Origin: a virus
Length of the DNA: 21,766 bases
IMG/VR virus record: IMGVR_UViG_3300017963_000805
Coordinates: 1-21,766 of that record
Reading direction: 5' to 3' (one strand)
Positions 7,758 to 21,766 of the stretch are shown here, one piece after another (positions within the stretch are counted from its first letter, which is position 1; each line of letters opens with the position of its first letter). Below the pieces are notes generated by a model. The model did no database searches. It saw nothing but the letters and a program-made list of their open reading frames with translations, and had not been told where the DNA came from. Both the position numbers and the translations under genes were made by a program.

Positions 7758-7771
7758 ATCTCCCCTCCATT

Positions 7772-7795
7772 AGGGGCGGGATTTCTCCCGCCCCT
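7772..7795 (-). terminator. Strong hairpin between decoration gene and cargo cluster
   Basis: A 10-bp perfect stem (AGGGGCGGGA/TCCCGCCCCT) closes a GAAA tetraloop on the minus strand. It sits between the decoration-protein stop (7814) and the ribosome binding site of the first cargo gene (about 7762). There is no U-run, so full termination is unlikely. It could lower transcription into the cargo genes or protect the 3' end of capsid mRNA. Confidence 0.55.
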
Positions 7796-7813
7796 CTCTT
7801 CACAGCCTCGCCG

Positions 7814-8242: not shown

Positions 8243-8263
8243 GAGATACCTCCTTTACTCAGC

Positions 8264-9544: not shown

Positions 9545-10895
9545 TGGGAACCTCCAATTCTCCCAGAGATAGCATTCCGTTCTCTATGGCGGCCAGCAGC
9601 TCCTTGCGGTCGCTTTCGGGATACGTGGGTGGGGCGTTCTTCCCCGGCCCGGCGTCCTCTGCGGCCTCCTCCTCGGACTCCGTGTCCGAGGATAGAGGTG
9701 CAGTTGCCTCGTAAAGCTCCTCCAGCGCGGCTAGTGCCTCTCGTACCTCGCGAGTCACACGACCAATCAGGGACCGATTGATCTGAGAAAGAACACGGCC
9801 CGCCTTTGTCTGTACATAGACCTCAGACAGAGGCGCGGGGGTGCCCTTGCCCCAGAGTTGAGCCATCATGATCTCTGCCAGAGCCTTGGGGTCGGCCCCA
9901 CGACTCTTGACCCAATCACCGGCCTGCTCGGGCGTGTACGCTTCGCGGTCAAACACAAAACACTGCACCATGGACGCGTTATCCTTGCGGCCCACCACAG
10001 CGTTGATGCCCTGGGCCAGCTCCACGGTGCGAAAACCATCAGCATCGAGCGTGTCAGGGTCCGCCACCACAACGCGAATGGTATCCTCGTCCAGCACAAG
10101 CGACATAGGCTGTTGCTTGTCGCCCTCTTCCTCTTCTTGGCCCGGCGGCTCGCGTTCGAGCTCCTCTCTGTATATCCGGGTCAGTTCGCGAATAGCCCCT
10201 TCCTTGTCCGGCCCCTCATAGACGTTGCCACGGGAGCCTTCATGCAAAGCCGCCCACGCAGCGCCACAAAGCCGGGGCTCCGGATTGCCGTCTGCGTCTC
10301 TGACTGGAAGATGCCACGTGCTCGGGGTGTCCTCGTCCTCAACCACCAGAAAACTAGAGGCGGGGAGGTCTTGGCCTGCCGCTCGCTTGGTCGGCTCGCC
10401 CTCAGCCTTGTCCTCTTCCGGCTCGTCTTCTTTCACAGCAGTAACGCGGGCCTCCTCGTTGGCGGGGAAGGTAACCACACTGACCTCGTGCAGACGAACC
10501 TCGCGCAAGTGGCGAACGTCCTTTTCGCCCTCATGGCTGTAGTCGTAAACGAGGGGCTCGTATCCAATAGAGAGCCCCTCAATCGCCCCGTCCTTCAGGA
10601 GGGCCAGCACATCCTTGCCGCGTCGCGTCTCACTGACAACTCCGGCAATCTCCAGCCCCTCGGGCGTCTCGCGCATCGCCTTGATCTTGCCCAGGGGCTC
10701 ACGCGGGTCGTGTTGCCAAAGAAAGCGGACCCTATCACCACGCTCTACCAGAGTCTTGGTGAAGGCGCCCTTGTGGATAATATCATCCACGCGATCTAGG
10801 TTACCGAACGCTGCCGCAAGACCCTCGAAGGTTCGCCCCTCCTCGTCCAATGCCTTGACGATAAAGGGAATTGCCTTTGTTTCGCGGTCACCCAT
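9537..10895 (-). CDS. Prohead protease with C-terminal scaffold-like region
   Basis: 452 residues. I placed the start at the ATG at 10895, seven bases after GGGAGG; a longer GTG reading would run through a hairpin. The N-terminal domain is an HK97-type U35 serine protease: FEGLAAAFGNLDRVDDIIHKGAF (23-45), FLWQHD with catalytic H62, GAIEGLSIGY with S109, then VRLHEVSVVTFPANEEA. After about residue 165 there is an acidic linker, a STWHLPVRDADG...GAAWAALHEG domain, a VQCFVFDREAYTPEQAGDWVKSRG segment and a GRVLSQINR helix, all familiar tails in phage proteases. The region is presumably an assembly scaffold. It matures the capsid by cutting the delta domain. Confidence 0.9.
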   Translation of the reverse strand: MGDRETKAIPFIVKALDEEGRTFEGLAAAFGNLDRVDDIIHKGAFTKTLVERGDRVRFLWQHDPREPLGKIKAMRETPEGLEIAGVVSETRRGKDVLALLKDGAIEGLSIGYEPLVYDYSHEGEKDVRHLREVRLHEVSVVTFPANEEARVTAVKEDEPEEDKAEGEPTKRAAGQDLPASSFLVVEDEDTPSTWHLPVRDADGNPEPRLCGAAWAALHEGSRGNVYEGPDKEGAIRELTRIYREELEREPPGQEEEEGDKQQPMSLVLDEDTIRVVVADPDTLDADGFRTVELAQGINAVVGRKDNASMVQCFVFDREAYTPEQAGDWVKSRGADPKALAEIMMAQLWGKGTPAPLSEVYVQTKAGRVLSQINRSLIGRVTREVREALAALEELYEATAPLSSDTESEEEAAEDAGPGKNAPPTYPESDRKELLAAIENGMLSLGELEVPNG

Positions 10896-10918
10896 GCTTG
10901 CCTCCCACACAGCAAAAC

Positions 10919-10958
10919 ACCCCTCCAGGTGCCTCGCGGGCACTAGAAGGGGCGTCTC
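10919..10958 (-). terminator. Terminator-like hairpin upstream of the protease gene
   Basis: On the minus strand CCCCT and GTGCC pair with GGCAC and AGGGG around a CGCGA loop, with a small internal loop, and TGTTTTGC follows directly. This is a plausible intrinsic terminator or attenuator between the accessory genes and the capsid operon. A second small stem (GCGTC/GACGC) lies just upstream at about 10951-10968. Nothing else is evident in the 139-base gap 10896-11034. Confidence 0.5.
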
Positions 10959-11034
10959 TAGACGGACGCTCTATTCTGTTCTCTAGCGAATAACGATTAA
11001 GACACGATCCTTACCCAGTTCATCGGGAAGAGAA

Positions 11035-11238
11035 TCAACCTTCGTCGGCTGCTTCTTGGGGTGCCTTTCTTGTTCTGCGCCTGGCGGGCGCTTCCGCCTC
11101 GGCTCGTTGTAGGTAGAAGACATCATAACGCCTCCTGCTGGTCACGGTTAGCAGCTCAAACCCCTCTGCTAGTCGCTGACACAGCAACTCCATGCCTTCT
11201 CCGTGTGGCCCCACCTCGACGCGCTCCAACGTTACCAT
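11035..11238 (-). CDS. Small basic-tailed protein, unknown function
   Basis: 67 residues from the ATG at 11238; a GTG at 11244 is an alternative. No ribosome binding site precedes either codon, but a consensus TATAAT lies immediately upstream (11245-11250), so the message may be leaderless. The N-terminal part (MVTLERVEVGPHGEGMELLCQRLAEGFELLTVTSRRRYDVFYLQR) looks like a compact alpha/beta fold, and the tail (APARRRTRKAPQEAADEG) is basic then acidic. I do not recognise the family. It is the last accessory gene before the capsid operon. Confidence 0.55.
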   Translation of the reverse strand: MVTLERVEVGPHGEGMELLCQRLAEGFELLTVTSRRRYDVFYLQRAEAEAPARRRTRKAPQEAADEG

Positions 11239-11244
11239 AATCAC

Positions 11245-11273
11245 ATTATAGCAGAAGCGCGTGACAATTGCAA
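11245..11273 (-). promoter_or_regulatory. Possible sigma-70 promoter giving a leaderless transcript
   Basis: The minus strand has TTGCAA (11268-11273), a 17-base spacer and TATAAT (11245-11250) with a TGC extension. Transcription would begin near the ATG at 11238. The sequence GGATAGC before the -35 recalls the GGATAGGC of the repeated promoters at 14.8-15.9 kb, so this may be a diverged relative. Confidence 0.5.
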
Positions 11274-11274
11274 G

Positions 11275-11484
11275 CTATCCTCTTTCGTCCTCAAGTGGAG
11301 CAAACTGAATCCCCTGATCGCCGGGATATGGCTCGCGATGCGCATTCTCCGCCTCCCATATCTCCAGTGGGATTTCCTGAAAGGCGGCACATTGCCGGTG
11401 CGCGAACTGGTCCCAATGCGCACAAAAGATACACGTCGGACTGTATACGGACTCCTCAACCTCACGGTCATCTATGACAGGCAT
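11275..11484 (-). CDS. Small Cys-rich phage protein
   Basis: 69 residues, ATG after AGGAGGCATT. The protein has CIFCAHWD, a later single Cys in QCAAF, and a conserved-looking tail IPLEIWEAENAHREPYPGDQGIQF. The pattern C-x2-C...C.AFP..IP..I..G...H..P.PGD.G..F is, from memory, a recurring small protein encoded near phage head-morphogenesis genes; its function is not established to my knowledge. Metal binding by the three cysteines and the histidine is likely. It lies nine bases after the zinc-ribbon protein and is probably co-expressed with the methyltransferase. Confidence 0.65.
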   Translation of the reverse strand: MPVIDDREVEESVYSPTCIFCAHWDQFAHRQCAAFQEIPLEIWEAENAHREPYPGDQGIQFAPLEDERG

Positions 11485-11492
11485 AATGCCTC

Positions 11493-11708
11493 CTATTGTA
11501 AACTGACCTCCGCACAAGCAAGTTGTCCCTCACACCATGGGCACTCAACAAGAACAGGACACCGGGTGGCGATAGGTGGCTCAAAAAGGAACACCCCCGA
11601 GCACCCTGAGCAGTGTACTATATATACCTGTACTAGCTTGTCTCGAATGTCGGGCACATACCATGTGGGAAAGGAAAACACTGGCGTAACCGTTGCGAGC
11701 TTGCTCAC
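11493..11708 (-). CDS. Zinc-ribbon protein
   Basis: 71 residues, GTG start overlapping the methyltransferase stop by three bases, so translation is probably coupled. VHCSGCSGVFLFEP and VLVECPWCEGQLACAE give a CxxC...CxxC zinc ribbon, with a short beta-rich N-terminus (VTPVFSFPTWYV). No other domain is visible. It may assist the adjacent DNA methyltransferase or be an independent small regulator; there is no direct evidence for either. Confidence 0.6.
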   Translation of the reverse strand: MSKLATVTPVFSFPTWYVPDIRDKLVQVYIVHCSGCSGVFLFEPPIATRCPVLVECPWCEGQLACAEVSLQ

Positions 11709-13354
11709 AATAACCTCTCTTGGTCCTTTGATTCCCTCAGGATAGCGGCGGGGTCGTCAAGCTTGGTATGTTCCATGGCCCACTGCCACCACCCAAGACG
11801 TGCCTCGGCCAAACTTAGATACTCCTCGCTGATCTCTATACCCGTTATGTTCCGCCATCCCGCAAGTAAGGCGCCTATTATCTCGCTTCCCGTGCCACTG
11901 AAAGGCACCAGCAAGCGGGCCTCGTCAAGGTAGGCCTCCGGTGGGCGACACAAGCGAGCAAGCCAACGACACACAGCAAGCGGCTTGATCGTAGGGTGCG
12001 GGTTGCGCACCTCCCCTGTGGTGTTAGGGGCATGCTCCGGCGTGCCCTTCATATCACCATAGGCAGCATGTCCCCGTGTCGGCTCACGGTCGTGGAGCCC
12101 CGCCTCGCGCTCGGCCCTATCCGCTTTCTTCTGAAACAGAAACCGCTCAATAAGAAAATCGTCACCACACAACTCAAGTCTGGGAAACCAATGTGCGGAA
12201 TCGCCTATCATCGCCGATGGGCAGGCCGGTTCACAGTCCCACTGCTCAATATCCTCGTGTTTTGGCCCCCAGGGGTGATAGCCCGTCGGCCTGCCCTCGT
12301 TGTTGAACGGCCTCATGCCGTCGGTGCGATTCCACTTGCCTGTGGTTGACATACGGACAACCACGGGCGCGGAGCCGCGCCCACCACATAACTCGCAGGA
12401 GATAATCCCTATTCCGCCCTGCTTTAGCTTGTCGTACTCCTCACGCGTCCCGCCGTAATCCTTTGTCTTGGCGTACCACTCCTCCCAGCTAGCCTTAAAG
12501 GGGGGCATTTCCCCCCTGATATGTCCACGCCCCCCACAGTTGGGGCATGGTTGCGTCTGTGGGGCACATCCGGCGCTATGGGACAACAGCAAGTTGGAAG
12601 GCCATCGGCCCCGCACAGTCACCTCAATATCTTTGGCGTCCCAGTTGTCATCACGAAATACCCCCTTCCCCTTGCTAGCCTGACTCATACCGTGGTAAGT
12701 GCGCTCCTCACTCCCTACCCTGGTCCCCTCTATCCACAATGCGCCGGACCCATGCTCTATGGCCGTTTGAGCATAGGTGTCTTGGCGGGGCTTGCGGGCC
12801 AAAACGATAGGCTCCCAGCTCGGCTTAAGACCCGTACCCCACCCGTCCCAAGTATGGGCGTCAGGCGTCGCTGGGGCCGTGATGGGAAGCAAAGTCCCCA
12901 GAGGCACCCTGTTTGGGTCGGGGCCTTGTCCCGCTCGCTTGCCACTGTGGCCACGTCCGGGAGCTGGGCGAGCCGTACCGGTTGGTTTCCACGTACCCAC
13001 CACTGGACGCTCGGCCCCGGCCTCCTTGTCTATGCGCTTGCTGATATTGGTGCTTTTGGGCAAGCCTTGGCCCTGTAACCAGCATAGGGTGTCGCACAGA
13101 TCAAATCCTGCATCCTCTATGGCCGACATCAGGCGGTGAAAGGTGCGCGGCCCACCAAACGCCAGCAAAACACCCCCCGGCTTGAGAACGCGCAACACCT
13201 CAAGCCAATACGCCTCCCCAGGCACACCATGGTCCCAGGTTCTTCCCATGAAATTGAGACCATAGGGCGGGTCACAGACGCACGCCACAAAAGACTCGTC
13301 CTCATACTCCTGAAGAACCTCTATCACGTCGCCCTGTCGAAACTCTATCCCCAC
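11705..13354 (-). CDS. DNA methyltransferase (N6-adenine/N4-cytosine, beta class) with zinc-knuckle insert
   Basis: 549 residues; GTG start preceded by a G-rich site. The catalytic motif DPPYG (28-32) is near the N-terminus and the SAM motif PFSGTGSE (484-491) near the C-terminus; this IV-before-I order marks beta-class amino-methyltransferases. Between them is a very large target-recognition region. It contains two CxxCxGRG knuckles (C270/C273 and C320/C323), the type found in DnaJ zinc domains. HPTIKPLAVCRWLARL precedes motif I, as usual. No restriction enzyme is adjacent, so it is an orphan methylase, likely protecting phage DNA or regulating it. The recognition site cannot be predicted. 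Confidence 0.88.
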   Translation of the reverse strand: MGIEFRQGDVIEVLQEYEDESFVACVCDPPYGLNFMGRTWDHGVPGEAYWLEVLRVLKPGGVLLAFGGPRTFHRLMSAIEDAGFDLCDTLCWLQGQGLPKSTNISKRIDKEAGAERPVVGTWKPTGTARPAPGRGHSGKRAGQGPDPNRVPLGTLLPITAPATPDAHTWDGWGTGLKPSWEPIVLARKPRQDTYAQTAIEHGSGALWIEGTRVGSEERTYHGMSQASKGKGVFRDDNWDAKDIEVTVRGRWPSNLLLSHSAGCAPQTQPCPNCGGRGHIRGEMPPFKASWEEWYAKTKDYGGTREEYDKLKQGGIGIISCELCGGRGSAPVVVRMSTTGKWNRTDGMRPFNNEGRPTGYHPWGPKHEDIEQWDCEPACPSAMIGDSAHWFPRLELCGDDFLIERFLFQKKADRAEREAGLHDREPTRGHAAYGDMKGTPEHAPNTTGEVRNPHPTIKPLAVCRWLARLCRPPEAYLDEARLLVPFSGTGSEIIGALLAGWRNITGIEISEEYLSLAEARLGWWQWAMEHTKLDDPAAILRESKDQERLL

Positions 13355-13526
13355 ATCTGCCCCCCGCTATGAACTGCCGCGCCTCGTCCATGGTACCCGC
13401 GATATAATGCACCGTCAAGTCAGGCGAAAGCTCGGTGCCCTGGGCCACAAAAGGGCCACCTCCATCGGACACAACATAATAGCGCCTGCGCCAGATTGAA
13501 CGGTCTCGGTCACCCGCTAGGTTCAC
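13302..13526 (-). CDS. Small hypothetical protein
   Basis: 74 residues from a GTG at 13526, which has an AGGAGGACGAGC leader. The centre (YYVVSDGGGPFVAQGT...VHYIAGTMDEARQFIAGG) suggests a small alpha/beta protein. The last 17 codons overlap the start of the DNA methyltransferase in another frame, and that tail (VSTGRRDRGSSGV) is low-complexity. No family recognised. The good start context and tight packing support it being a gene. Confidence 0.5.
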   Translation of the reverse strand: MNLAGDRDRSIWRRRYYVVSDGGGPFVAQGTELSPDLTVHYIAGTMDEARQFIAGGRCGDRVSTGRRDRGSSGV

Positions 13527-13809
13527 GCTCGTCCTCCTCTATCCAGCGTTTCACATCATCACGTATAACATGGAACGCCGCCTCCTGAGCCGAGTTGGCG
13601 GGGATACGAAAAACGCGCGGCACAATCGCGCCCGGCTCCAGCCACCAAACCCGATAGACGTAGAAACGCGGGGCCTCTGCACAGATTCCAAGAAAGGTCA
13701 CCATCACCTCGCCCGCCCGACCGCTGCCGAGGTGCACAAGCTCATAGTGCGTTATCCGCCGGTCAGGCGTGGGGCGCAGTGTCCACTCAATTCCATTAGA
13801 ACCTATCAT
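13510..13809 (-). CDS. Hypothetical protein, 99 residues
   Basis: ATG at 13809 lies six bases after GGGAGG and inside the end of the upstream gene (14-base overlap). The protein is a mix of beta strands (ITHYELVHLG, EVMVTFLGI, RFYVYRVWWLEPGAIVPRVFRI) and a final helix rich in acidic residues (AAFHVIRDDVKRWIEEDEREPSG). It overlaps the next gene by 17 bases. No known motif was recognised; the compact overlapping layout is typical of phage accessory genes. Confidence 0.55.
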   Translation of the reverse strand: MIGSNGIEWTLRPTPDRRITHYELVHLGSGRAGEVMVTFLGICAEAPRFYVYRVWWLEPGAIVPRVFRIPANSAQEAAFHVIRDDVKRWIEEDEREPSG

Positions 13810-14065
13810 CACCATCCTCCCGGCGCATGTCCTCTGCCACATCCGCCTCAAGGGCGTCAAGCTCCGCACGCGCATCGTCCGTCCAGGCCATCTCTAGCTC
13901 GGCAATTATCCGGCGAATTTCCTCGCGGACCCGGCGGGTGTCATAGCCCACTGCCTCTAGATTCCGCTCCGCGTCGCGCAAGGCACAAAGCGCTATAGTG
14001 GTATACGTCCATGCCTCGGTGAGACGCGCGGAGGCGTAGTCAATTCGGCCAACGTCGGTGGTCAT
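13796..14065 (-). CDS. Helical hypothetical protein, 89 residues
   Basis: ATG at 14065 follows AGGAGGAATA. The sequence is almost entirely helical and charged: a Tyr/Thr/Ala-rich helix (ASARLTEAWTYTTIALCALRDAERNLEAVG) followed by two further helices (RRVREEIRRIIAELEMAW, ARAELDALEADVAEDMRRE), compatible with a coiled-coil or helical bundle. No catalytic residues or family signature were recognised. Two hairpins precede it at 14088-14153. Confidence 0.6.
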   Translation of the reverse strand: MTTDVGRIDYASARLTEAWTYTTIALCALRDAERNLEAVGYDTRRVREEIRRIIAELEMAWTDDARAELDALEADVAEDMRREDGDDRF

Positions 14066-14087
14066 TATTCCTCCTATGATAGAAACA

Positions 14088-14153
14088 AACGGGAGGCTTT
14101 TTCGGCCCGCCAGGCCACATGCCTCCCGTTGTGCCTTCGGGCAACCCGAAGGC
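14088..14153 (-). terminator. Paired hairpins in the gap before the helical protein
   Basis: On the minus strand GCCTTCGGG/CCCGAAGGC (14133-14153) forms a 9-bp stem with a 3-base loop. AACGGGAGGC/GCCTCCCGTT (14088-14097 with 14121-14130) then forms a 10-bp stem followed by TGTTTCT. The second is terminator-like, and its arm also contains a GGGAGG that would be hidden when folded. The arrangement could act as a terminator or attenuator. Confidence 0.5.
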
Positions 14154-14171
14154 GCCGTCCCTAGCTATAGA

Positions 14172-14187
14172 CTACATGATTCCTCCC
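14172..14187 (-). other. Start-stop element (ATG-TAG) with a strong ribosome binding site
   Basis: Directly after the TAG of the 70-residue gene, the minus strand reads GGGAGGAATC ATG TAG: a full-strength ribosome binding site at good spacing to a start codon followed at once by a stop. It may be a decayed gene start or a ribosome-holding element; no reading frame of note follows. Confidence 0.4.
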
Positions 14188-14399
14188 TACGGCGCTATAT
14201 CAATCTCCAGTGGCAAGCGCCGGTCCCTTGCCATTCTACGAGCGAGCCCTACAATCCGCTCGCGGCTCGTACTAGTGTATATCTTCCCCATAGGCTCGCC
14301 GTCATCGTAACACACGGCACACGAGAAGATTCTATACTCGTCGCCGTCGCGATTCTCTGTCACATCACCCCATGCCCAAATCACGCGCTCGGTGTCCAT
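14187..14399 (-). CDS. Hypothetical protein, 70 residues
   Basis: ATG at 14399 follows AAGGAAACAAAAGAA, a weaker site than most in the window; the longer frame upstream passes through hairpins and lacks a site. The protein (MDTERVIWAWGDVTENRDGD, then YRIFSCAVCYDDGEPMGKIYTSTS) appears as a small beta-sheet with a single CAVC, ending in a basic helix (RERIVGLARRMARDRRLPLEIDIAP). No family recognised. It lies downstream of the 83-residue gene and probably shares the minus-strand promoter at 14739-14767, with the GGCTCGC hairpin between them. Confidence 0.5.
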   Translation of the reverse strand: MDTERVIWAWGDVTENRDGDEYRIFSCAVCYDDGEPMGKIYTSTSRERIVGLARRMARDRRLPLEIDIAP

Positions 14400-14426
14400 T
14401 TCTTTTGTTTCCTTGTGTCTAGAGTC

Positions 14427-14456
14427 GGCTCGCCCTTGCGAGCCTTGCGCAAGGCT
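14427..14456 (-). repeat. GGCTCGC/GCGAGCC hairpin and adjoining palindrome (minus-strand copy)
   Basis: GGCTCGC (14427-14433) and GCGAGCC (14438-14444) form a 7-bp stem with a 4-base loop. Overlapping it, a 16-bp palindrome centred on TTGCGCAA (14441-14456) covers the stop codon of the 83-residue gene. The same 7-bp arms recur at 15241-15258 and 16204-16221, again beside stop codons. Confidence 0.7.
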
Positions 14457-14706
14457 AGGCCTTGCGAGCGTCGAGCCCACGATACGAGCCCGGACGCCAA
14501 ACGTCATAGGTCTCGCACCCAAACGCGTTTGCGTCGTGAGGCGCAATCATCTTAAACCCGCGTGCCTTGAACGCCGACTCGGCGATGAAAACATACATTG
14601 ACGCAATGTCCTCCGCGTCAACATCGCCCTTGTCCTCGGCGTGGGTCACTTGCGCCCACAACCCGTCAAGAAGGACCTTTGCGCGCGTCGCCGTCCAATA
14701 GTCCAT
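14455..14706 (-). CDS. Hypothetical protein, 83 residues, divergent from the plus-strand island
   Basis: ATG follows GGGAGGACAA. The protein is mostly helical (YWTATRAKVLLDGLWAQVTHAED, AEDIASMYVFIAESAFKARGFKM) with a polar C-terminus (HDANAFGCETYDVWRPGSYRG). No family was recognised. Its leader and promoter are a minus-strand copy of the cassette used by the plus-strand island genes, so it is probably regulated together with them although it points the other way. The stop codon lies within a palindrome. Confidence 0.6.
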   Translation of the reverse strand: MDYWTATRAKVLLDGLWAQVTHAEDKGDVDAEDIASMYVFIAESAFKARGFKMIAPHDANAFGCETYDVWRPGSYRGLDARKA

Positions 14707-14738
14707 TTGTCCTCCCTTGCCTTGACTAGCGTGCCACC

Positions 14739-14767
14739 ATTATAACACATACCGCACGCCTTGTCAA
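14739..14767 (-). promoter_or_regulatory. Sigma-70 promoter, minus-strand copy of repeated cassette
   Basis: TTGACA (14762-14767), 17-base spacer, TATAAT (14739-14744), reading left. The spacer ends GCGGTATGTGT, matching the GCGGTATGTGC of the plus-strand copies. It drives the 83-residue gene at 14706. It is an ideal consensus promoter in both boxes and spacing. Confidence 0.9.
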
Positions 14768-14776
14768 GCCCCAATT

Positions 14777-14839
14777 TTGACGGAAAATTGACGCGTGGTC
14801 GAGCGCTCGCGTCAAGAACTTTTTACGGAACGTTTACGG
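14777..14839. promoter_or_regulatory. Four operator-like heptamers in the divergent control region
   Basis: All on the plus strand: TTGACGG (14777), TTGACGC (14788), TTTACGG (14822), TTTACGG (14833). Members of each pair start 11 bases apart, about one helical turn, and the pairs are 34 bases apart, about three turns. They lie between two divergent promoters and are good candidates for sites of one repressor or activator. Between the two pairs is the palindrome CGAGCGCTCG. Confidence 0.6.
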
Positions 14840-14846
14840 ATAGGCC

Positions 14847-14901
14847 TTGACAAGGGCAAGGGTATGTGCTATAATGGTGGCATAGTCAAGACAAGGGGAG
14901 G
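14847..14901 (+). promoter_or_regulatory. Sigma-70 promoter and leader, cassette copy A
   Basis: TTGACA (14847-14852), 17-base spacer, TATAAT (14870-14875), then a leader with GGGGAGG at 14895-14901. Tandem TTTACGG heptamers lie just upstream. It drives the 114-residue gene at 14908. Confidence 0.92.
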
Positions 14902-14907
14902 CACAAG

Positions 14908-15252
14908 ATGATGACACGAGAAAGCAAAACGGCACGCGTCGAGCGGTGGGCACGCGTTCTAGACTCCATTAATGGACGCATCGCCGCGGCACGCGTCGAG
15001 CAACAAGAATTGGCGGCACGCGTCGAGCGAGGAACGCTCGACCCAACGAGCGTTGAGTATGAAATCGAAATGCACCGAGCCTACATCGCGCACGAGGCGG
15101 CCATATACGAGTACAATCTTGTGGAGCACGAGCTATCCATCGTCCGTAACGAGCCGGTTCTCGACCCGATAGACAAGATTTGGATTATTGACAACACCGA
15201 CACCGAGCCCGACGCGCTTGACATCGCGGTCGAGCGTCTCGCGAGCCGATAG
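14908..15252 (+). CDS. Coiled-coil protein, first gene of plus-strand island
   Basis: 114 residues, ATG six bases after GGGGAGG (a second ATG follows at once). The N-terminal two-thirds is a long charged helix, probably a coiled coil (ERWARVLDSINGRIAAARVEQ, then YEIEMHRAYIAHEAAIYEYNLVEHEL). The C-terminus is acidic (DNTDTEPDALDIAVERLASR). A 14-base sequence (GGCACGCGTCGAGC) occurs three times in frame at 14931, 14988 and 15015, coding for ARVE each time, which suggests growth by short duplication. Unknown function. The stop codon sits in the loop of a hairpin. Confidence 0.7.
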   Translation: MMTRESKTARVERWARVLDSINGRIAAARVEQQELAARVERGTLDPTSVEYEIEMHRAYIAHEAAIYEYNLVEHELSIVRNEPVLDPIDKIWIIDNTDTEPDALDIAVERLASR

Positions 15253-15278
15253 GCTCGCGCATGGGCGACTAGTCGCCC
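15240..15278 (+). repeat. GCGAGCC/GGCTCGC hairpin plus 16-bp palindrome at gene end
   Basis: GCGAGCC, loop GATA, GGCTCGC (15241-15258, extended to 8 bp by the flanking C and G) covers the stop codon of the 114-residue gene. It is followed by the perfect palindrome GGGCGACTAGTCGCCC (15263-15278). No U-run follows, so strong termination is not expected; it directly abuts the next promoter cassette. Confidence 0.75.
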
Positions 15279-15282
15279 GGAA

Positions 15283-15360
15283 TTTACGGAACGTTTACGG
15301 ATAGGCTCTTGACAATGCTTGCGGTATGTGCTATACTAGAGTCACACTAGACAAGGGGAG
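15283..15360 (+). promoter_or_regulatory. Promoter cassette copy B
   Basis: Tandem TTTACGG at 15283 and 15294, TTGACA (15309-15314), 17-base spacer, TATACT (15332-15337), and an ACAAGGGGAGGC leader from 15351. It is almost identical to copies A and C apart from a one-base change in the -10 box. It drives the genes at 15367 and probably 15624. Confidence 0.92.
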
Positions 15361-15366
15361 GCAACG

Positions 15367-15618
15367 ATGACAAACGCACAAATGGCCGAGAAGATTCGCG
15401 AGCAAACGCTATACCGCCTACAAAAGATTCGAGACTATGGCGACAAAATCACCTTGGCACGCGAGAACGGAACGTGGGAGGGAATTGACTATTTTGTCCA
15501 CATGCAAAATTGGAACGACACAACGCTCGGCGGCATTACCGAACTAGCCTATGCGCTCGGGTTTCGCGTCGAAATCAACTATGAAAAAATGACGGTTACC
15601 GTCAAGAAACGAGGATAA
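15367..15618 (+). CDS. Small hypothetical protein, 83 residues
   Basis: ATG follows GGGGAGGCAACG. The first 45 residues are helical (MAEKIREQTLYRLQKIRDYGDKITLAREN). The C-terminus is a helix plus two strands (GGITELAYALGFRVEINYEKMTVTVKK). The end resembles that of the 86-residue gene at 16268 (LGFRVEINY versus LGVNIHVDY), and the two share 24 identical bases across their leader and first codons, so they may be distant paralogues. Function unknown. Transcribed from cassette copy B. Confidence 0.68.
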   Translation: MTNAQMAEKIREQTLYRLQKIRDYGDKITLARENGTWEGIDYFVHMQNWNDTTLGGITELAYALGFRVEINYEKMTVTVKKRG

Positions 15619-15623
15619 CACAA

Positions 15624-15881
15624 ATGACTACAATCGCCGAGACAAAGGCGGCTCGGGGTATGATGCTTGACGCGCTCGCGCAAGGCGGCATGCCCATAGA
15701 TGAAATTGAAGCCCTATTGAAAGACAACGACACAAGGCGAGCGCTCGGTAGGCTCGCCCGTGACACCGTCGGTATCGTCAATGCTTTTGTGTCCATTGCT
15801 AGAGACAACCCGCAATGGGGTAGGGCGATTCTAGAACGCGAGGCGGAACGCGCCCGGAATTTACGGAACGTTTACGGATAG
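15624..15881 (+). CDS. Small helical hypothetical protein, 85 residues
   Basis: ATG five bases after the previous TAA with an ACGAGGATAACACAA leader, so it is co-transcribed with the 83-residue gene. It is predicted to be all helical (ETKAARGMMLDALAQGG, IDEIEALLKDNDTRRALGRLARDTVGIVNAFVSIA). The last eight codons, ending NLRNVYG, are encoded by the operator part of the next promoter cassette, and the TAG stop lies two bases beyond the second TTTACGG. The C-terminus is therefore set by regulatory DNA. Function unknown. Confidence 0.65.
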   Translation: MTTIAETKAARGMMLDALAQGGMPIDEIEALLKDNDTRRALGRLARDTVGIVNAFVSIARDNPQWGRAILEREAERARNLRNVYG

Positions 15882-15940
15882 GCCCTTGACAAGGCTTGCG
15901 GTATGTGCTATAATAGGGGTATAGTCAAGACAAGGGGAGG
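15860..15940 (+). promoter_or_regulatory. Promoter cassette copy C
   Basis: Tandem TTTACGG at 15860 and 15871, TTGACA (15886-15891), 17-base spacer, TATAAT (15909-15914), and a leader with ACAAGGGGAGGC. The upstream part overlaps the 3' end of the 85-residue gene. It drives the gene at 15947 and probably 16268. Confidence 0.92.
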
Positions 15941-15946
15941 CACAAA

Positions 15947-16204
15947 ATGGAAACCCAACAAATCGGGTTCGGTATCCAAGACGGTCCGCGACGAATATAC
16001 TCCATCACGGGCATAGGGTATCGGGAAGGCGCGCGTCTCCGGTCCGCCGGATGGGAATGGATACGCGGGTTCAAATGTCCCGGAACATGGTCAACCGAAA
16101 ATCCACGAGTGTTCGCGGATGCGGTTCGCCGGGTACGGGGCACAAAATGGTACGGTGGGATTTGGCGGATGCGGGTCGGTGGCAATTTCGAGCGTATAGA
16201 CTAG
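15947..16204 (+). CDS. Small basic hypothetical protein, 85 residues
   Basis: ATG follows GGGGAGGCACAAA. The protein is rich in Gly, Arg and Trp (GIGYREGARLRSAGWEWIRGFKCPGTW, then RVFADAVRRVRGTKWYGGIWRMRVGG) and probably forms a small beta-rich fold with one central helix. Its net positive charge would allow nucleic-acid binding or mimicry-type interactions, but nothing specific is recognised. It has its own consensus promoter. A GCGAGCC hairpin begins at its stop codon. Confidence 0.65.
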   Translation: METQQIGFGIQDGPRRIYSITGIGYREGARLRSAGWEWIRGFKCPGTWSTENPRVFADAVRRVRGTKWYGGIWRMRVGGNFERID

Positions 16205-16238
16205 CGAGCCGCAAGGCTCGCGCACGGGCACAAAGCCC
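16204..16238 (+). repeat. GCGAGCC/GGCTCGC hairpin at gene end, third copy
   Basis: GCGAGCC (16204-16210), loop GCAA (a GNRA tetraloop), GGCTCGC (16215-16221), then a smaller GGGC/GCCC stem (16226-16238). The layout equals that at 15240-15278. No full promoter follows, so transcription of the next gene must pass this hairpin unless a weak promoter was missed. Confidence 0.7.
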
Positions 16239-16267
16239 AAACCATAATAGCACAAGGGGAGGCAACG

Positions 16268-16528
16268 ATGACAAAGGCGGAAATCACGCACAAGTTAGTT
16301 GACGCACTACGGGGCGAGCTTTTGTTCCGAGACGACAAGCTAGCTCAAGCGGCGCTCGTCAAAGACGTAGACAAGACAACATACGAGGCACTAGTGCAAA
16401 GCGCTCGCTATTGCCGATCATTTTGTAACGGTATCGTCAAAGCGGGCAAGATGCTCGGTGTCAATATCCACGTGGACTATGCGCCATGGGAAGACAAAAC
16501 ACCCCGCGAGCGCATCACCGTCCTATAG
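16268..16528 (+). CDS. Small hypothetical protein, 86 residues
   Basis: ATG after GGGGAGGCAACG, the same leader as the 83-residue gene but without a promoter of its own; a lone CATAAT at 16242 lacks a -35. The protein is helical for about 60 residues (MTKAEITHKLVDALRGELLFRDDKLAQAALV, YEALVQSARYCRSFCNGIVKAGKMLG) and ends in strands (VNIHVDY, ERITVL). It probably shares ancestry with the gene at 15367. Function unknown. A clear intrinsic terminator follows at once. Confidence 0.66.
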   Translation: MTKAEITHKLVDALRGELLFRDDKLAQAALVKDVDKTTYEALVQSARYCRSFCNGIVKAGKMLGVNIHVDYAPWEDKTPRERITVL

Positions 16529-16534
16529 GCCAAG

Positions 16535-16568
16535 TGGCCAAGGGAAACAAATCCCCTTGGCCATTTTT
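16535..16568 (+). terminator. Rho-independent terminator
   Basis: A 10-bp perfect stem, TGGCCAAGGG (16535-16544) with CCCTTGGCCA (16554-16563), has a 9-base loop and is followed immediately by TTTTT. This is the one textbook intrinsic terminator in the window. It closes the promoter-cassette genes (14908-16528) and separates them from the three genes that follow. Confidence 0.92.
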
Positions 16569-16614
16569 GCAAAAAAAATCACGAAATTTCCCCAAGTCCG
16601 CACGGGAGGCGGAG

Positions 16615-17070
16615 ATGCAAAACGGGCACATTTGGGACGCAGCGTTGGCCAAGCGCCGGGCGGAACAAGCGGCACAAATCGCCAAGGAGGCCGACTGGGC
16701 CGAGACGAAAGTTTCACGAGCCGCAAAGGCATTTCGGGCTCTGTTCGGTCTGTCCATTGAGGGTGGCTATTATGATAGCGCCAGCGGCGACGTACATTTC
16801 TCCATGGGCGGATACACCAGCATTGTCTTCCAGGGGTACCGAGAGGGGTGGCGGGTAGATTGGGTCTGTAGCGAGTGTTCCGAGACGCATTCCCACCCCA
16901 TTGTCCAGGTATCCGACATCGGCGCTTTTGCGGAGGACACAATAGAGGCGCATGTGTGTCCAGAGTGGGGCCAGGTGACGAAGGTTCCCACCCCCACCGA
17001 CGCCTTTGTGGACATGCTGGTGGCGCGCGTTGTGGCGGAGGTTCGCAGAATGGCAGAGGAGGACTTGTGA
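16615..17070 (+). CDS. Hypothetical protein with possible metal-binding centre, 151 residues
   Basis: ATG at 16615 is four bases after a GGGAGGC GGAG region; the longer upstream frame passes through the terminator. Residues 1-45 are helical (AALAKRRAEQAAQIAKEADWAETKVSRAAKAF). A central beta part (IEGGYYDSASGDVHFSMGG) leads into CSECSETHSH (85-94) and HVCPEW (113-118), so C85, C88, H92 or H94 and C115 could bind zinc. The C-terminus is a helix. No family recognised. No promoter was found between the terminator and this gene. Its stop overlaps the next start by one base. Confidence 0.6.
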   Translation: MQNGHIWDAALAKRRAEQAAQIAKEADWAETKVSRAAKAFRALFGLSIEGGYYDSASGDVHFSMGGYTSIVFQGYREGWRVDWVCSECSETHSHPIVQVSDIGAFAEDTIEAHVCPEWGQVTKVPTPTDAFVDMLVARVVAEVRRMAEEDL

Positions 17071-17474
17071 TGGCTGACGGTATGGCGTATGCGCACGAGG
17101 AACAGGGGCTCGGCGCTTGGGGTTTTCCCAAGGAGACACTCCGGGACATGGAGGAGGATGTCTTGCCACTGTGCTGCGATGGGCGCGAACCGGCGGAGGC
17201 CTTCCGGTTCAGCCCCATCGGTGTGCAGGTCCCGGAGGCGGTTGTTTTCATCACACGAAAGGTAGGCCCCAACTACGACGAACTCTACAGCGCCGTCGTT
17301 GTGTTCTTTGGGGAGGAGAAATGCGAGCTGTACGGCGGCATCTCCCCTCCCGGCTCCAACATTGCGGAAAAGGCATACGAGTTTGCGGCACAGGCCTACG
17401 AGGACAGGGGATACACTCAGACCGTTGCCAAGAATCTTCTAGAGAGGTGGTCAGGTGGCCATAAGAACGCGTAG
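17070..17474 (+). CDS. Hypothetical protein, 134 residues
   Basis: ATG overlaps the previous stop (TGATG) and follows GAGGAGGACTTGTG. The sequence suggests a small alpha/beta protein: an acidic N-terminus (ETLRDMEEDVLPLCCDGREP), strands VVFITRKVG and ELYSAVVVFFGEEKCELYGG, and a C-terminal helical stretch (NIAEKAYEFAAQAYEDRG, VAKNLLERW). No motif recognised. It is translationally coupled to the 151-residue protein and overlaps the last island gene by 20 bases. Confidence 0.6.
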   Translation: MADGMAYAHEEQGLGAWGFPKETLRDMEEDVLPLCCDGREPAEAFRFSPIGVQVPEAVVFITRKVGPNYDELYSAVVVFFGEEKCELYGGISPPGSNIAEKAYEFAAQAYEDRGYTQTVAKNLLERWSGGHKNA

Positions 17475-17778
17475 GGAGCGAGATAACGAGGCCGTATTGC
17501 CCGTGAGCAAAGGGTCCGCCACAGTATACACTTTCGCTCATCGAGGGCCAGAGTGGGGATACTCGCTAGAGGTTCTTGTAAAATTGGATAACCCCTACAC
17601 CAGGACATACTTAACCATAACCCGAACGTGGCGCGGCTTTACGGAGCTCCCAGACCTTGTAGAGTGGACGGGGCACGCGAGCAACCCTTGGGAGGCAGCC
17701 AAGTATGCCGTTGCACACTGGACAGGTGTACTGGTCAAGGAAGAGGAGCCTACTCTAGAGAAAGCCGCCGATAGCTGA
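17455..17778 (+). CDS. Hypothetical protein, last gene of plus-strand island
   Basis: 107 residues from a GTG that lies inside the end of the previous gene, behind GAGAGG. The protein has beta strands (ATVYTFAHRG, YSLEVLVKLDN, TYLTITRTWRGF) and a helix with Trp (NPWEAAKYAVAHWTGVLV). The last 29 bases overlap the 3' end of the MuF gene on the opposite strand, with no terminator between the converging genes. Function unknown. Confidence 0.58.
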   Translation: MAIRTRRERDNEAVLPVSKGSATVYTFAHRGPEWGYSLEVLVKLDNPYTRTYLTITRTWRGFTELPDLVEWTGHASNPWEAAKYAVAHWTGVLVKEEEPTLEKAADS

Positions 17779-19384
17779 CGTCGTATCCAATTTTGCGCAT
17801 GGCTCGCGTGGCCATACTCCACACCTTGTGCCAGTGGTTGGCATTGGCCTCGGAAAAGGTCATTTCGCCAGACAAGATAGCCTTGATGTCTTGGCGCTTG
17901 ACCAGGCCACGCGAGCCCACGATGATCTCGGCTATATTCCGATTGTCCTCTGCCGATAGACCCCGGTCTTGCATGTTGTTCGTGAACGAGTAGCGCCATT
18001 TCTGGCCAGCGGCATCTTGGCCGGATACCCGCATTTCCTTGACACGATAGTGCAGGGCCATGGTCACATCACTCGTGCTGAGCCCGCGCCCCGATGGGTG
18101 ATTGTGCAGAATGTATCCCCCGGCAAGGCCTCGCAACTCCTCGGGGGTGAGCCGTACCTGCGTTGCCTCGCCCGCACGCTCCGTGACAACCCGCCCGTCA
18201 GAGCCCATAGCACACATGCGCTCATAGTCCAGGGGCATATACATCTGCTCGCGACGGCCAAAGACGGCATCCTTGTTGACGCGCCCCTCCGTGCTGTTCG
18301 GTGGGCCTGCAGCCTTGCTTCCCTCAGTAATGCGCTCGCGCTCCGTGATACCATAGGGGAGCATCACACACCGGCACTGTATGACCATTTCGAGGGGGGC
18401 ACCACGAGAGTCGTCGCCTGGGAATCCGACCTCGGCACCCCCCACCTTGAAGGGGGCGTCCATGGGGATGGGGCCTGGCACACCCCCCTCCGAATATTCG
18501 TACATCGCCTGGGCGTGTTCCGGGCGCTCCCGCCCGTCGATTGAGGCCAGCCACGTCTTGCGCTGCACGCCCCACTCACGCATCAGATGATACGAGCCTG
18601 CATGACTGGCCCTCATAGTCTGGTCACGCGCTATGAGCTCGCGCCGATACTCCGGCATGCGCTCCTCGTACCAGGTGAAATCCTCACGCGTCTTGTCGCC
18701 ATCCATCCACTGCTCGAATAAGGTTGTCAGGCGGTCCTGCATCATCTTGACAGACCACCCCTCGACAATGGCGTGCTTTTGCATCAGGGCGAGGCCATCG
18801 TGTGTGGTCTGGTTGATCGGCTGGGCAAAGGTCGTTGTATAATCGTTGAACCACTCGGCCGCATCTAGGTTCGCCACGTTGAACCGTGCCCCGAGGGTTG
18901 ACTGGAGCACATCCGCTTGCCCGCGAATGACGGCCCGAATACCGGGGAGAAACTCCTCGCGCCAGTTATCCCCCGCCTTCTCCAGCAAATACTTACGATA
19001 GAGCTCGCCAAAAGTCTGCCAGTCGAGTGAGGCCTTGAGGTGGAGTGATTTCTCACGCACCTCAGACAGCATAGCCAGGATGGCCCGCATATCCTTGTAG
19101 AGAGCCCGCCTGGTCGCGTCGCCCAACTCCTCCTCGTGGGAATCAGCAACGTTCAATACTTGCGCGCGATACTCCCAAGGGGTTGCCTTGCCCTCGTTTG
19201 GCTCCTCCTGCTCTACCCACAAGAGTTGGGTCAGCCCCTCCCATGTATCGTCCTCGAACCACTCGCGGAACTCACCCACAGACATGGGGTCCAGGTCAAC
19301 GATGGCACAATACCGGTCCACCGCCTCCTGAGTAAGAGCCGCCTTGGCTCGCGTAAGACTCGCCTCAAGAGAAGCCCTTACCAC
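17750..19384 (-). CDS. MuF/SPP1 gp7-type head morphogenesis protein with C-terminal HNHP domain
   Basis: 544 residues, GTG start after GGGAGG. Residues about 1-165 are helical. The MuF domain (about 170-345) is recognisable from RELIARDQTMRASHAG, MREWGVQRKTWLASIDGRERPEH, DAPFKVGG...GFPGD and the closing IQCRCVMLPY. MuF proteins bind the portal, sit in the head in few copies and can leave with the DNA. After a linker, residues about 375-540 carry a second domain with DGRVVTERAG, LTPEELRGLAGGYILHNHPSGRGLSTSD (412-439) and a C-terminal helical tail. HxHP with S436 and D439 resembles a JAB/MPN metal site, but the spacing is one residue short and the usual Glu is unclear. It may be a virion-carried enzyme. 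Confidence 0.8.
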   Translation of the reverse strand: MVRASLEASLTRAKAALTQEAVDRYCAIVDLDPMSVGEFREWFEDDTWEGLTQLLWVEQEEPNEGKATPWEYRAQVLNVADSHEEELGDATRRALYKDMRAILAMLSEVREKSLHLKASLDWQTFGELYRKYLLEKAGDNWREEFLPGIRAVIRGQADVLQSTLGARFNVANLDAAEWFNDYTTTFAQPINQTTHDGLALMQKHAIVEGWSVKMMQDRLTTLFEQWMDGDKTREDFTWYEERMPEYRRELIARDQTMRASHAGSYHLMREWGVQRKTWLASIDGRERPEHAQAMYEYSEGGVPGPIPMDAPFKVGGAEVGFPGDDSRGAPLEMVIQCRCVMLPYGITERERITEGSKAAGPPNSTEGRVNKDAVFGRREQMYMPLDYERMCAMGSDGRVVTERAGEATQVRLTPEELRGLAGGYILHNHPSGRGLSTSDVTMALHYRVKEMRVSGQDAAGQKWRYSFTNNMQDRGLSAEDNRNIAEIIVGSRGLVKRQDIKAILSGEMTFSEANANHWHKVWSMATRAMRKIGYDVSYRRLSLE

Positions 19385-19396
19385 CCACGTACCTCC

Positions 19397-19675
19397 CTAC
19401 TCAATCGCCTCATAACCCCAACAAAAATCAGCGTCCGACAGAATGTGATATTCGGATTTTGCATCGCGCACAACCAATACAAGCCACTCGCCTGGGCCAA
19501 TTTTTTTGTACCCACCCACAGTAGGAACAACACTCCACTGCTCGCTCTGCATGGCCTCAACAACCAAGGGGCGACTCCTGTACAATCCCCACTCAGCCCC
19601 ACCCCTTACGGACGCACGCCCCGGACCGAACACCAAGGGCAGCCACACAATGACCGCTGCCAATACTCCCCTCAT
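19397..19675 (-). CDS. Small secreted or membrane-anchored protein, 92 residues
   Basis: ATG at 19675 follows GAGGGGAAGTC; the frame upstream overlaps the preceding gene. The N-terminus (MRGVLAAVIVWLPLVFG) is a typical signal peptide or membrane anchor: one Arg, a 14-residue hydrophobic core and a possible cleavage site near GRASV. The remainder (about 70 residues) is polar with strands (WSVVPTVGGYKKIGPGEWLVLVVRDAKSEYHI). No lipobox cysteine. An exported protein in the head region suggests a moron, for example superinfection exclusion or a host-surface function, but there is no direct evidence. Confidence 0.55.
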   Translation of the reverse strand: MRGVLAAVIVWLPLVFGPGRASVRGGAEWGLYRSRPLVVEAMQSEQWSVVPTVGGYKKIGPGEWLVLVVRDAKSEYHILSDADFCWGYEAIE

Positions 19676-19685
19676 GACTTCCCCT

Positions 19686-20027
19686 CTACTCCATAGGCCA
19701 GCCACATAACGCGCAGACCAGAATACCATCCTGATAGCGCATCATTGAGCCGTGCTCCGTGCACTGAAACACGGCTTCCTCGGCAGGAGTGGGGACCATG
19801 CGCCTCAGATTGACATACGGCTCCAGTCCTAGCCTGCCATAAACGTCTATGTGCTCTACGATCTCATCCGGCGGACGCTCTGAAAGGCGCTCGCTGCTAC
19901 AGTAGACGTCACACATCCCACCCACATACTCAGGCAGCGCACGAATATCTGTGATGGTCACGTCGGGCGGCAGCCGCAACATGCGGGCCAACATGTAGTA
20001 ACTCAGGCGGAATCGGCGCTTACCCAC
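19686..20027 (-). CDS. Hypothetical protein with C-terminal zinc ribbon
   Basis: 113 residues. I chose the GTG at 20027, preceded by GGGAGGGGAGAGTA; the longer frame overlaps the previous gene and is its shadow. The body (LRLPPDVTITDIRALPEYVGGMCDVYCSSERLSERPPDEIVEHIDVYG...) looks like an alpha/beta fold with a CDVYC pair. The end (FQCTEHGSMMRYQDGILVCALCGW) resembles a small zinc ribbon with C, H and CxxC ligands. No family recognised. It stands between two other small genes in the run before MuF. Confidence 0.55.
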   Translation of the reverse strand: MGKRRFRLSYYMLARMLRLPPDVTITDIRALPEYVGGMCDVYCSSERLSERPPDEIVEHIDVYGRLGLEPYVNLRRMVPTPAEEAVFQCTEHGSMMRYQDGILVCALCGWPME

Positions 20028-20040
20028 TACTCTCCCCTCC

Positions 20041-20223
20041 CTACCTATCCACGTGCTTCTGTTGAGCCCACGAAACCAAACAATGGGTCGAGCAGAAAAA
20101 CAGCTTTTTGGGCACGTCCCACATGGCACCACGCTCGCCCTGCACGATAGCCTTCTCCCAGTAAACACTCACCCGCCGGTTGCGAATAAGTCCACCACAC
20201 GCCTCGCAATGTTCAGCCGTCAC
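20041..20223 (-). CDS. Small zinc-finger protein, 60 residues
   Basis: GTG start overlaps the preceding stop (GTGA), with GGGGAGGGGGA before it. The pattern CEACGG (C6, C9), about 35 residues, then FFCSTHCLVSWAQQKH matches a treble-clef, TRASH or MYM-like zinc finger (CxxC...FCSxxC). Such short fingers often bind metal or nucleic acid, or mediate protein contact. Exact partner unknown. It is translationally coupled to the two-module metallopeptidase gene, which suggests a functional link or simply compact packing. Confidence 0.6.
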   Translation of the reverse strand: MTAEHCEACGGLIRNRRVSVYWEKAIVQGERGAMWDVPKKLFFCSTHCLVSWAQQKHVDR

Positions 20224-21548
20224 TCCCCCTCCCCAAGCTCGGCCCGGCTGACCCGAGTGACTCCTCCAAGCACCTCAATAAACTCTGCGTGCCCCTCAGC
20301 GTTCTTGCGGAACATAACCACCGACCTTGGCATGCCGTCAACGGCCTTACCCAGAACCCCCACCTCGCCAACCAAATAGTCACCATATACGGAATGTCCA
20401 CTGCTCAACACGTCAGTAAAGCTGCGGCCAAAGTCACCGGCGATTTTTTCCGGTGTCCACCGTCCCCAGTCAGCCTCGTCCGAAAAGTGTTGGCCGTGAC
20501 GCGCAAAGATACGCTCCCCAATCAGCTTGGCGGCATTGTCCGTTTTAATAACCGCCGTCCCAAGCTCCCTAACGGACATACCCGTCAGGGGGGCAAGCTT
20601 GTCTCGCACATAGGACACCTCCTGCTGGTAGGTCTTGAAAGCGCGAGGACAAATCTCTTCTGTGAGGGCTTGGGTAAGACCTTCCACAAACGCGGGGGAC
20701 CCCTTGGTCAAGTCAATGCCCGCAGCATGCACAAGCTCGTGGGTTATTGTCCCTATAGGCAGCTCGTCACGAACAAGAAGCTCGCCGTCGCTCGTCAGCA
20801 CCCCGACAATATGTGCCCCGGAAGTCTTCTCTATACTCTGGAGGTGGTCGTCAATCTCCTCGCCAGAAACAACCCGCACCTCTTTCTCAGCAAACTCAGG
20901 CCCAAGAGCCTCTCCAATAATAGCCTTCTCGTAATCTACCAGAGCACCACCCTCATATAGGGGCACCCCCATCTCTTCAGACAACGCGGATGGAGGCAGA
21001 GGTTGGCTCGATAGGGCGGGAAGGCTCCCCCCTCTCCGCCCAGGTACTCCTCGATGCCCATAGTTGCCCGACCCAGGCCCACCCTTAAAGAACCTCTTCA
21101 GCCACGCCTTAATCTGCTGCCCCATCTTGTCGCGCCGGTTGTTGTACCACTTATCCAGCACCGTCTTGACGACCGGCCCCTCGCCCACGATGAACCCGTC
21201 AAGCTTGCCCCTGAACCGCAACTCCTTGTACCACTTCTCCTCGGGAAGGTCCTTCCCCTCCAGCCCTGTAAGCGCATCCTCTACAGACTTAAACTTGCGC
21301 CGTTCCTTCATGCGCTGGAAAGCATGGCGCGACAGGCGCACCTTGGCCGAGGGACTCCCCGTCCCTGGGGCACTACCCCCTCGGTTGCCCGGCACACCGA
21401 CATGGCCCCAGTTGCCCGACCCCGGCCCACCCTTCACCCATAGCCCGCGCGGGTTCAGCACAAAGGCCTCCGCCTTGCCCTTGTTGGTGGGCAGGACGAT
21501 GAGATCATAGCGCGGTGTGATGGTCCAGGTTAGGTCGGGATAGTACAT
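20220..21548 (-). CDS. Two-module protein: RNase-like domain plus HExxH metallopeptidase with twin GGPGSGN motifs
   Basis: 442 residues. ATG at 21548 overlaps the previous stop (TGATG); an upstream ATG lies inside the neighbouring gene. A 20-residue motif of form GGPGSGNxGHxGxPGxRGGS occurs at 40-59 and 156-175. After the first comes a small domain (about 70-137) with RHAFQRMKERRKF and GFIVGEGPVVKTVLDKW, reminiscent of DUF4258/RelE-like RNase toxins. After the second comes a metallopeptidase domain: THELVHAAG (269-277, zinc ligands H270 and H274, catalytic E271) with E289 in FVEGLTQALTE as a likely third ligand. A final region (about 365-442) is unassigned. It precedes MuF in the operon. Possible head-carried effector; the motifs may be linkers or cleavage sites (inference). 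Confidence 0.65.
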   Translation of the reverse strand: MYYPDLTWTITPRYDLIVLPTNKGKAEAFVLNPRGLWVKGGPGSGNWGHVGVPGNRGGSAPGTGSPSAKVRLSRHAFQRMKERRKFKSVEDALTGLEGKDLPEEKWYKELRFRGKLDGFIVGEGPVVKTVLDKWYNNRRDKMGQQIKAWLKRFFKGGPGSGNYGHRGVPGRRGGSLPALSSQPLPPSALSEEMGVPLYEGGALVDYEKAIIGEALGPEFAEKEVRVVSGEEIDDHLQSIEKTSGAHIVGVLTSDGELLVRDELPIGTITHELVHAAGIDLTKGSPAFVEGLTQALTEEICPRAFKTYQQEVSYVRDKLAPLTGMSVRELGTAVIKTDNAAKLIGERIFARHGQHFSDEADWGRWTPEKIAGDFGRSFTDVLSSGHSVYGDYLVGEVGVLGKAVDGMPRSVVMFRKNAEGHAEFIEVLGGVTRVSRAELGEGE

Positions 21549-21712
21549 CAGTCGCCCTCTTGCAAACGCTCGTGAAACTCCCTGTAGGCCGCAGTCGCCT
21601 CCTCTTGTTCCTCGGAACGATGGAGCCATTCCGCATTTTCGCGCGCGTCCTCTTCGTCCAGCATATCCACAAAATCAATCTCAACCAAGGCCTCTTCGTC
21701 TTTGTCTGTCAC
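21548..21712 (-). CDS. Small acidic protein, or C-terminus of a longer gene from beyond the edge
   Basis: 54 residues from a GTG five bases after GGGAGG. The protein is highly acidic and helical (TDKDEEALVEIDFVDMLDEEDAREN, EEQEEATAAYREFHERLQEGD). The same frame is open to the right window edge (18 more codons, ending ...LVVLDGREDN before the GTG), so it could instead be the C-terminal tail of a larger protein such as a portal, which would be expected here. A different frame ends in a TAG at the ribosome binding site, which favours a separate small gene. Its stop overlaps the next start. Confidence 0.5.
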   Translation of the reverse strand: MTDKDEEALVEIDFVDMLDEEDARENAEWLHRSEEQEEATAAYREFHERLQEGD

Positions 21713-21766
21713 GTTGTCCTCCCTACCATCCAGAACTACGAGGCGGGGGCTCTGTCCCGGTACCCC

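Follow-up and report, generated by a model that had tools for sequence, protein, structure and literature searches.

Four full-consensus sigma70/sigmaA promoters, TTGACA-N17-TATAAT with one TATACT variant, lie within positions 14739-15914 of the window (the whole 21,766-nt stretch analysed, record IMGVR_UViG_3300017963_000805, a fragment of a tailed phage), where they recur as parts of a repeated control cassette at the head of small genes. The repetition is a real arrangement, not one that is new in kind, and other phages do similar things. We consider it probable that the region forms an island of the moron type, made up of small early or accessory genes, and that most of its units are headed by one modular control cassette. 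The cassette would combine an upstream site phased at 11 bp, a full-consensus extended -10 promoter and a leader with a strong Shine-Dalgarno sequence. On this reading these would be modular 'uber' promoters, at which host housekeeping RNA polymerase starts transcription of the small genes without depending on late transcription; this would probably happen shortly after the DNA has entered the cell or, should the phage be temperate, in the prophage state. The cassette would have spread by local duplication or recombination, the genes behind it being swapped or having diverged, and the upstream site would most likely tune all copies jointly, by head-to-tail binding of a regulator or by docking of the C-terminal domains of the RNA polymerase alpha subunit. 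Repeated plug-in cassettes of this kind point to small genes that are expressed together and probably first, and genes expressed together at that stage are the usual places of host-takeover, anti-defence and superinfection functions.

The island, whose small genes are mostly on the plus strand, occupies 14.1-16.6 kb and is embedded in a minus-strand block of head genes, between the head-morphogenesis gene and the protease and capsid genes; over it GC goes down to 0.53-0.55 and the skew inverts. The minus strand of the window encodes a head-tail adaptor, methyltransferases, glycosyltransferase-like genes, the major capsid protein (MCP), the maturation protease, a DNA methyltransferase and a MuF-like head-morphogenesis protein (17750-19384), and the MuF-like, protease and major capsid genes all run leftward. 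Capsid relatives are 33-37% identical, and distant relatives have in common just the MCP and portal, at 24-37%. Two adjacent minus-strand ORFs at 3129-5620 are both weak matches to one glycosyltransferase family (phrog_2170), and together with the methyltransferases they recall the modification genes of cluster O between portal and protease.

A second record of the same virus (L005) matches window 15849-21553 with 99.95% identity across 5705 bases and extends the known gene set by portal and large terminase (TerL); both were named by sequence features and synteny, the portal being additionally backed by comparison with relatives. Cassette C and the leader-only copy (E, below) are also present in L005 and, since this record has the same DNA rightward from 15849, they are not an artefact of one contig. 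The alignment stops at window 21553 (window 21554-21766 against L005 1-3927), which therefore marks an assembly break in one record or population variation at that point. A coding repeat, GGPGSGN-GH-G-PG-RGGS, is present close to the portal protein's end and at least twice in the next protein (window 21018-21434; L005 about 3678-4450).

The core promoters, M on the minus strand and A to C on the plus strand, match the consensus at 11-12 of 12 positions and have, by sequence, every element of the sigma70/sigmaA extended -10 class (-35 TTGACA, a spacer of 16-18 nt, TGn and -10 TATAAT):

14739-14767, minus strand: promoter M, TTGACA-N17-TATAAT with extended -10 GTATGTGT, then CAAGGGAGGACAAATG
14847-14875, plus strand: promoter A, TTGACA-N17-TATAAT with extended -10
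15309-15337, plus strand: promoter B, TTGACA-N17-TATACT with extended -10
15886-15914, plus strand: promoter C, TTGACA-N17-TATAAT with extended -10

The 17-nt spacer ends in GTATGTGC in the plus copies and in GTATGTGT in the minus copy; the GTATGTG(C/T) directly 5' of each -10 is thus more than a shared spacer end, as it supplies the TG of the extended -10. No other TTGACA-N16-18-TATANT site exists in the 21.8-kb record, none appeared in 100 dinucleotide shuffles, and a scan of 13.5-18.5 kb under looser rules ranked these four at the top. The distance from the end of the -10 to the ATG is 32, 29, 32 and 32 nt across the four. More than 100 viral contigs have a -35 together with GTATGTGnTATAnT, and in some of them many promoters of this form occur. 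The core is accordingly no more than a strong promoter of host type, and GTATGTG(n)TATA(A)T is ruled out as a phage-specific feature.

Between promoter and gene stands a 13-nt leader, ACAAGGGGAGGCA, which contains the Shine-Dalgarno sequence and is exact before four plus-strand genes:

14891-14903, plus strand: leader copy A
15351-15363, plus strand: leader copy B
15930-15942, plus strand: leader copy C
16252-16264, plus strand: leader copy E, promoterless, with a CATAAT remnant alone upstream

Searches for a structural RNA leader or a tRNA found none. The control blocks are 79-96% identical in pairwise comparison, and over the 240 nt of gene that follow them similarity does not exceed that of shuffled sequence. 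Over a stretch of 66 nt, which spans the control region and not the genes, cassettes B and C are 95% identical.

The small genes served by these elements are:

14455-14706, minus strand: minus small ORF behind promoter M, 83 aa, no family match, coding score 0.50 per codon
14908-15252, plus strand: small gene 1, 114 aa, no family match
15367-15618, plus strand: small gene 2, 83 aa, no family match
15624-15881, plus strand: small gene 3, 85 aa, second in unit B without a separate promoter; operator C provides its final codons and stop (GGATAG)
15947-16204, plus strand: small gene 4, 85 aa, the sole relative found being that of the same virus in L005
16268-16528, plus strand: small gene 5, 86 aa, with leader copy E only and no intact promoter

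These ORFs are likely coding, to judge from codon scores, with unequal strength among them: the scores are positive for most plus-strand ORFs, negative for antisense shadows and zero for gene 4. Comparison of the small proteins with PHROGs, Pfam, NCBIfam and PADLOC gave no credible match, and DNA and protein searches of GenBank phages gave no relative of the five small genes queried. A single-sequence model of gene 3 is all-helical, with pLDDT reaching 82 for the best model of five and 58-71 for the others, and its predicted fold had no match in the PDB; the model of the minus small gene is of low confidence. Pairwise tests of paralogy (21 comparisons) yielded nothing significant, the best pair being genes 2 and 5 with p=0.01 before correction, and the idea that the small genes are paralogues was dropped. 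With no significant paralogy, the genes are unrelated as far as can be detected, in contrast to their cassettes with 79-96% identity. The earlier note on this DNA had described promoters with a 17-base spacer ending in GTATGTG(C/T), one of them with TATACT, a shared leader, and TTTACGG heptamers in tandem 11 bases apart in the plus copies, as control units that precede unrelated small genes inside a late operon. This description stands: the four promoters are there, ACAAGGGGAGGCA is exact in all plus copies and occurs once more at 16252, three heptamer pairs were confirmed, no relation between the genes was detected, and gene matches confirm a block of virion genes around the units. From the shared cassette we may fairly infer a coordinated expression of the genes that it heads.

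GCGAGCC hairpins tend to close the units of the island, and the rightward set probably stops at an intrinsic terminator, as suggested by the following structures:

14088-14130, minus strand: 10-bp perfect stem, 23-nt loop and tail TGTTTCT, at the left edge of the island
14427-14444, minus strand: GGCTCGC-AAGG-GCGAGCC hairpin, directly past the minus small gene
15241-15258, plus strand: GCGAGCC-GATA-GGCTCGC hairpin without a U-tract, overlapping the gene 1 stop
16204-16221, plus strand: GCGAGCC-GCAA-GGCTCGC hairpin, at the stop of gene 4
16535-16563, plus strand: predicted intrinsic terminator with a perfect stem of 10 bp and a 9-nt loop followed by TTTTT, at the right end of the island

The last of these was overlooked by a standard scan owing to the loop limit of that program, and the hairpin at 14088-14130 is likely the terminator of the leftward small genes, judging by its stem and tail. 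The GCGAGCC/GGCTCGC hairpins close three units and have no U-tracts, and most unit-end hairpins may for that reason not terminate.

By analogy, moron loci are the nearest functional concept for the island. An own promoter and an orientation antisense to the prophage lytic genes are typical of such loci (PMC7067206), and the window resembles prophage morons in its own promoters, in small, putatively accessory genes and in an orientation that in morons, too, is often antisense to lytic genes (PMC7067206). An own promoter is present here at sequence level; as for an own terminator, one good intrinsic terminator ends the rightward set, and the single units have hairpins without a U-tract. Unlike morons, the window has several units under one cassette. 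Both the position of the island and the repetition have precedents, because an 18-bp intergenic motif recurs in Microbacterium cluster EC, where one copy precedes a gene that is inserted between those for the MuF-like protein and the protease, and because four genes of cluster EJ run in reverse within the structural operon (PMC7302621); the motif of the window differs from the 18-bp motif of cluster EC in sequence and spacing. Cluster O phages have an even larger repeat family, mostly away from promoters (PMC4351075).

Upstream of the -35, the three plus copies share an identical 23-nt block in which TTTACGG occurs twice, 11 bp apart, and TTTACGGAACGTTTACGGATAGG is common to them letter for letter. 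TTTACGG is found 8 times in the window against a mean of 1.5 in shuffles, and six of the eight occurrences form the three pairs. The minus copy has no TTTACGG and carries a repeat of its own with the same period and place and a different sequence:

14772-14793, minus strand: CGTCAA direct repeat (twice, 11-bp period), upstream of promoter M
14822-14839, plus strand: operator-like pair copy A, TTTACGG-N4-TTTACGG
15283-15300, plus strand: operator-like pair copy B, TTTACGG-N4-TTTACGG
15860-15877, plus strand: operator-like pair copy C, TTTACGG-N4-TTTACGG

The distance from the start of the repeat to the -35 is 26 bp in the minus copy and 25-26 bp in the plus copies. The period and place tested at the minus copy had been set beforehand by the three plus copies, and a period-11 run of 6 or more occurs in only 1.2% of the 40-nt windows of this record. 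An 11-bp direct repeat thus lies just 5' of the -35 in all four promoters, M included (lag-11 z=5.7). An inverted repeat, TTGACGCG-N12-CGCGTCAA, lies at 14788-14815, between the divergent promoters M and A.

The phased repeats could be read as a site for a regulator or as part of a plain strong promoter, and we regard the two as about equally likely, each a tentative reading. In the first, the 11-bp direct repeats would bind, head to tail, an OmpR/PhoB-type response regulator, encoded by host or phage, that activates or represses all copies, and a regulon would then be readable straight from raw sequence. The spacing would put the half-sites on one face of the DNA, at about -60 and -49, and the 23-nt block is identical in three copies, its period and position recurring with another sequence at the minus copy; a regulon is plausible on this evidence. 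Two 11-bp direct repeat units near the -35 are the arrangement of PhoB/OmpR-type operators, a likeness of architecture only. To our knowledge, the half-site TTTACGG is no known PHO-box unit. Streptomyces PHO boxes consist of two 11-nt direct repeat units (PMC7866108), PhoB binds direct repeats (PMC10294691), and some cyanophage genes are under host PhoB control (PMC10976474), although the last study itself cautions that predicted Pho boxes in phages are unreliable. An activator would hardly be needed, however, because the promoters already match the full consensus; no regulator gene was found in the window, and in 34 bacterial contigs the operator pattern occurs as single copies, at a level that looks like chance.

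In the second reading, the phased repeats would be docking sites for two alpha C-terminal domains, similar to an UP element, and the genes would be expressed at once and strongly with no dedicated regulator. UP subsites span -45 to -37 and -58 to -45 (PMC2613000), a range in which AATTTT and AAAATT occur in the minus copy with a spacing of about 11 bp. The minus copy therefore fits, whereas the plus repeats are not A/T tracts, conserve the GG as well and are offset by about 5 bp upstream of the subsites. Upstream of the -35, several unrelated multi-promoter phages (L052, L099, L080 and L120) also have an excess near lag 11, but the test used simple letter shuffles and, because these kept letter counts only, the excess in AT-rich phages is partly due to A-tract phasing. 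T4 early promoters, described as UP/-35/TGn/-10 'uber' promoters (PMC2988021), offer a parallel: as in the window, many near-consensus host-type promoters with TGn are present, which in T4 can compete with those of the host. The window differs in that four copies are packed into about 1.2 kb of a head-gene block and have almost the same flanks and leader, and in that TTTACGG pairs stand in place of the plain A/T UP element of T4.

It is also conceivable, though we think it unlikely, that the conserved blocks are mainly homology joints for the shuffling of gene modules, their identity reflecting recent copying and not regulation. The 66 nt common to B and C, which leave out the genes, the TAG stop of gene 3 at the end of operator copy C, and the persistence of leader E with no promoter all agree with this, and the heptamers may not be under selection, as recent duplication could account for their shared sequence. 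Against it, the positions that are kept are exactly the functional ones of promoter and ribosome site, even in the more diverged minus copy.

The earlier note had likened the units to the start-associated sequences (SAS) of some mycobacteriophages. As in cluster K SAS/ESAS (PMC3203893) and Microbacterium cluster EF (PMC7302621), a 13-nt ribosome-site sequence, unusually constant for such a site, is repeated near the starts of several small genes, with additional upstream repeats at some copies (in the window, most of them), but membership is very improbable, given that the SAS consensus GGGATAGGAGCCC is at chance level in the window (9 matches at up to 3 mismatches against 8.7 expected, none at small-gene starts), that the 17-bp imperfect inverted repeats of ESAS are absent, the upstream element being a direct repeat of 11-bp period, and that the leader, different in sequence, is part of a cassette with a whole consensus sigma70/sigmaA promoter. 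Such a promoter is not described as part of SAS/ESAS (PMC3203893), and cluster K SAS is, on sequence comparison, only an analogy for the window.

The earlier note had also called for a search for more cassettes and for conservation in relatives. The window yielded the four known cassettes and zero further ones, and related records yielded none, nor did the 3.9 kb by which L005 extends past the window. The exact operator 22-mer was found in the same virus only. A looser operator followed by TTGAC matched 34 bacterial and five viral contigs, the latter including the same virus; all other matches are single-copy, promoterless and in unrelated places, about as expected by chance. The promoter and leader pattern matched the same virus and three other contigs, and the two that were inspected are AT-rich and have no upstream block. 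A search for relatives based on TerL also returned the same virus only. These searches thus found no independent relative with a conserved operator, leader or small genes, and conservation of the cassette or operator in other phages, as a candidate, was rejected, the matches being the same virus or chance-like.

Two unrelated phages have the plan in common with the window, with different sequences. IMGVR_UViG_3300028832_000236 (L011/L192) has sixteen operator-promoter units at 3000-20600 of 45591, in which a GTTAG-N6-CTAAC palindrome lies exactly 9 bp before TTGAC(A/T)-N17-TATAAT/TATACT with TG; the reversed control pattern gave 0, and most units then carry a leader and a start codon. As in the window, an operator stands at a fixed distance from the promoter in many copies before genes; unlike it, the operator is palindromic and the phage AT-rich, with 16 copies over about 16.5 kb. 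This phage exemplifies the plan on a far larger scale and would suit further study better than the window. One could imagine, although we think it improbable, that diverse phages independently hold multi-copy, phased operator-promoter-leader cassettes, each with its own operator and regulator, that plug captured small genes into one regulon; under this addressing system the window may be a small example and IMGVR_UViG_3300028832_000236 a large one. In IMGVR_UViG_3300021254_000027 (L052), 13 plus-strand promoters with an extended -10 lie in about 9 kb (record positions of about 97-105 kb), and several have TTAAC at -5, -16 or -27 from the -35, in an 11-bp phase. These TTAAC repeats resemble what we take to be the TTAACA units of Bacillus PhoP boxes.
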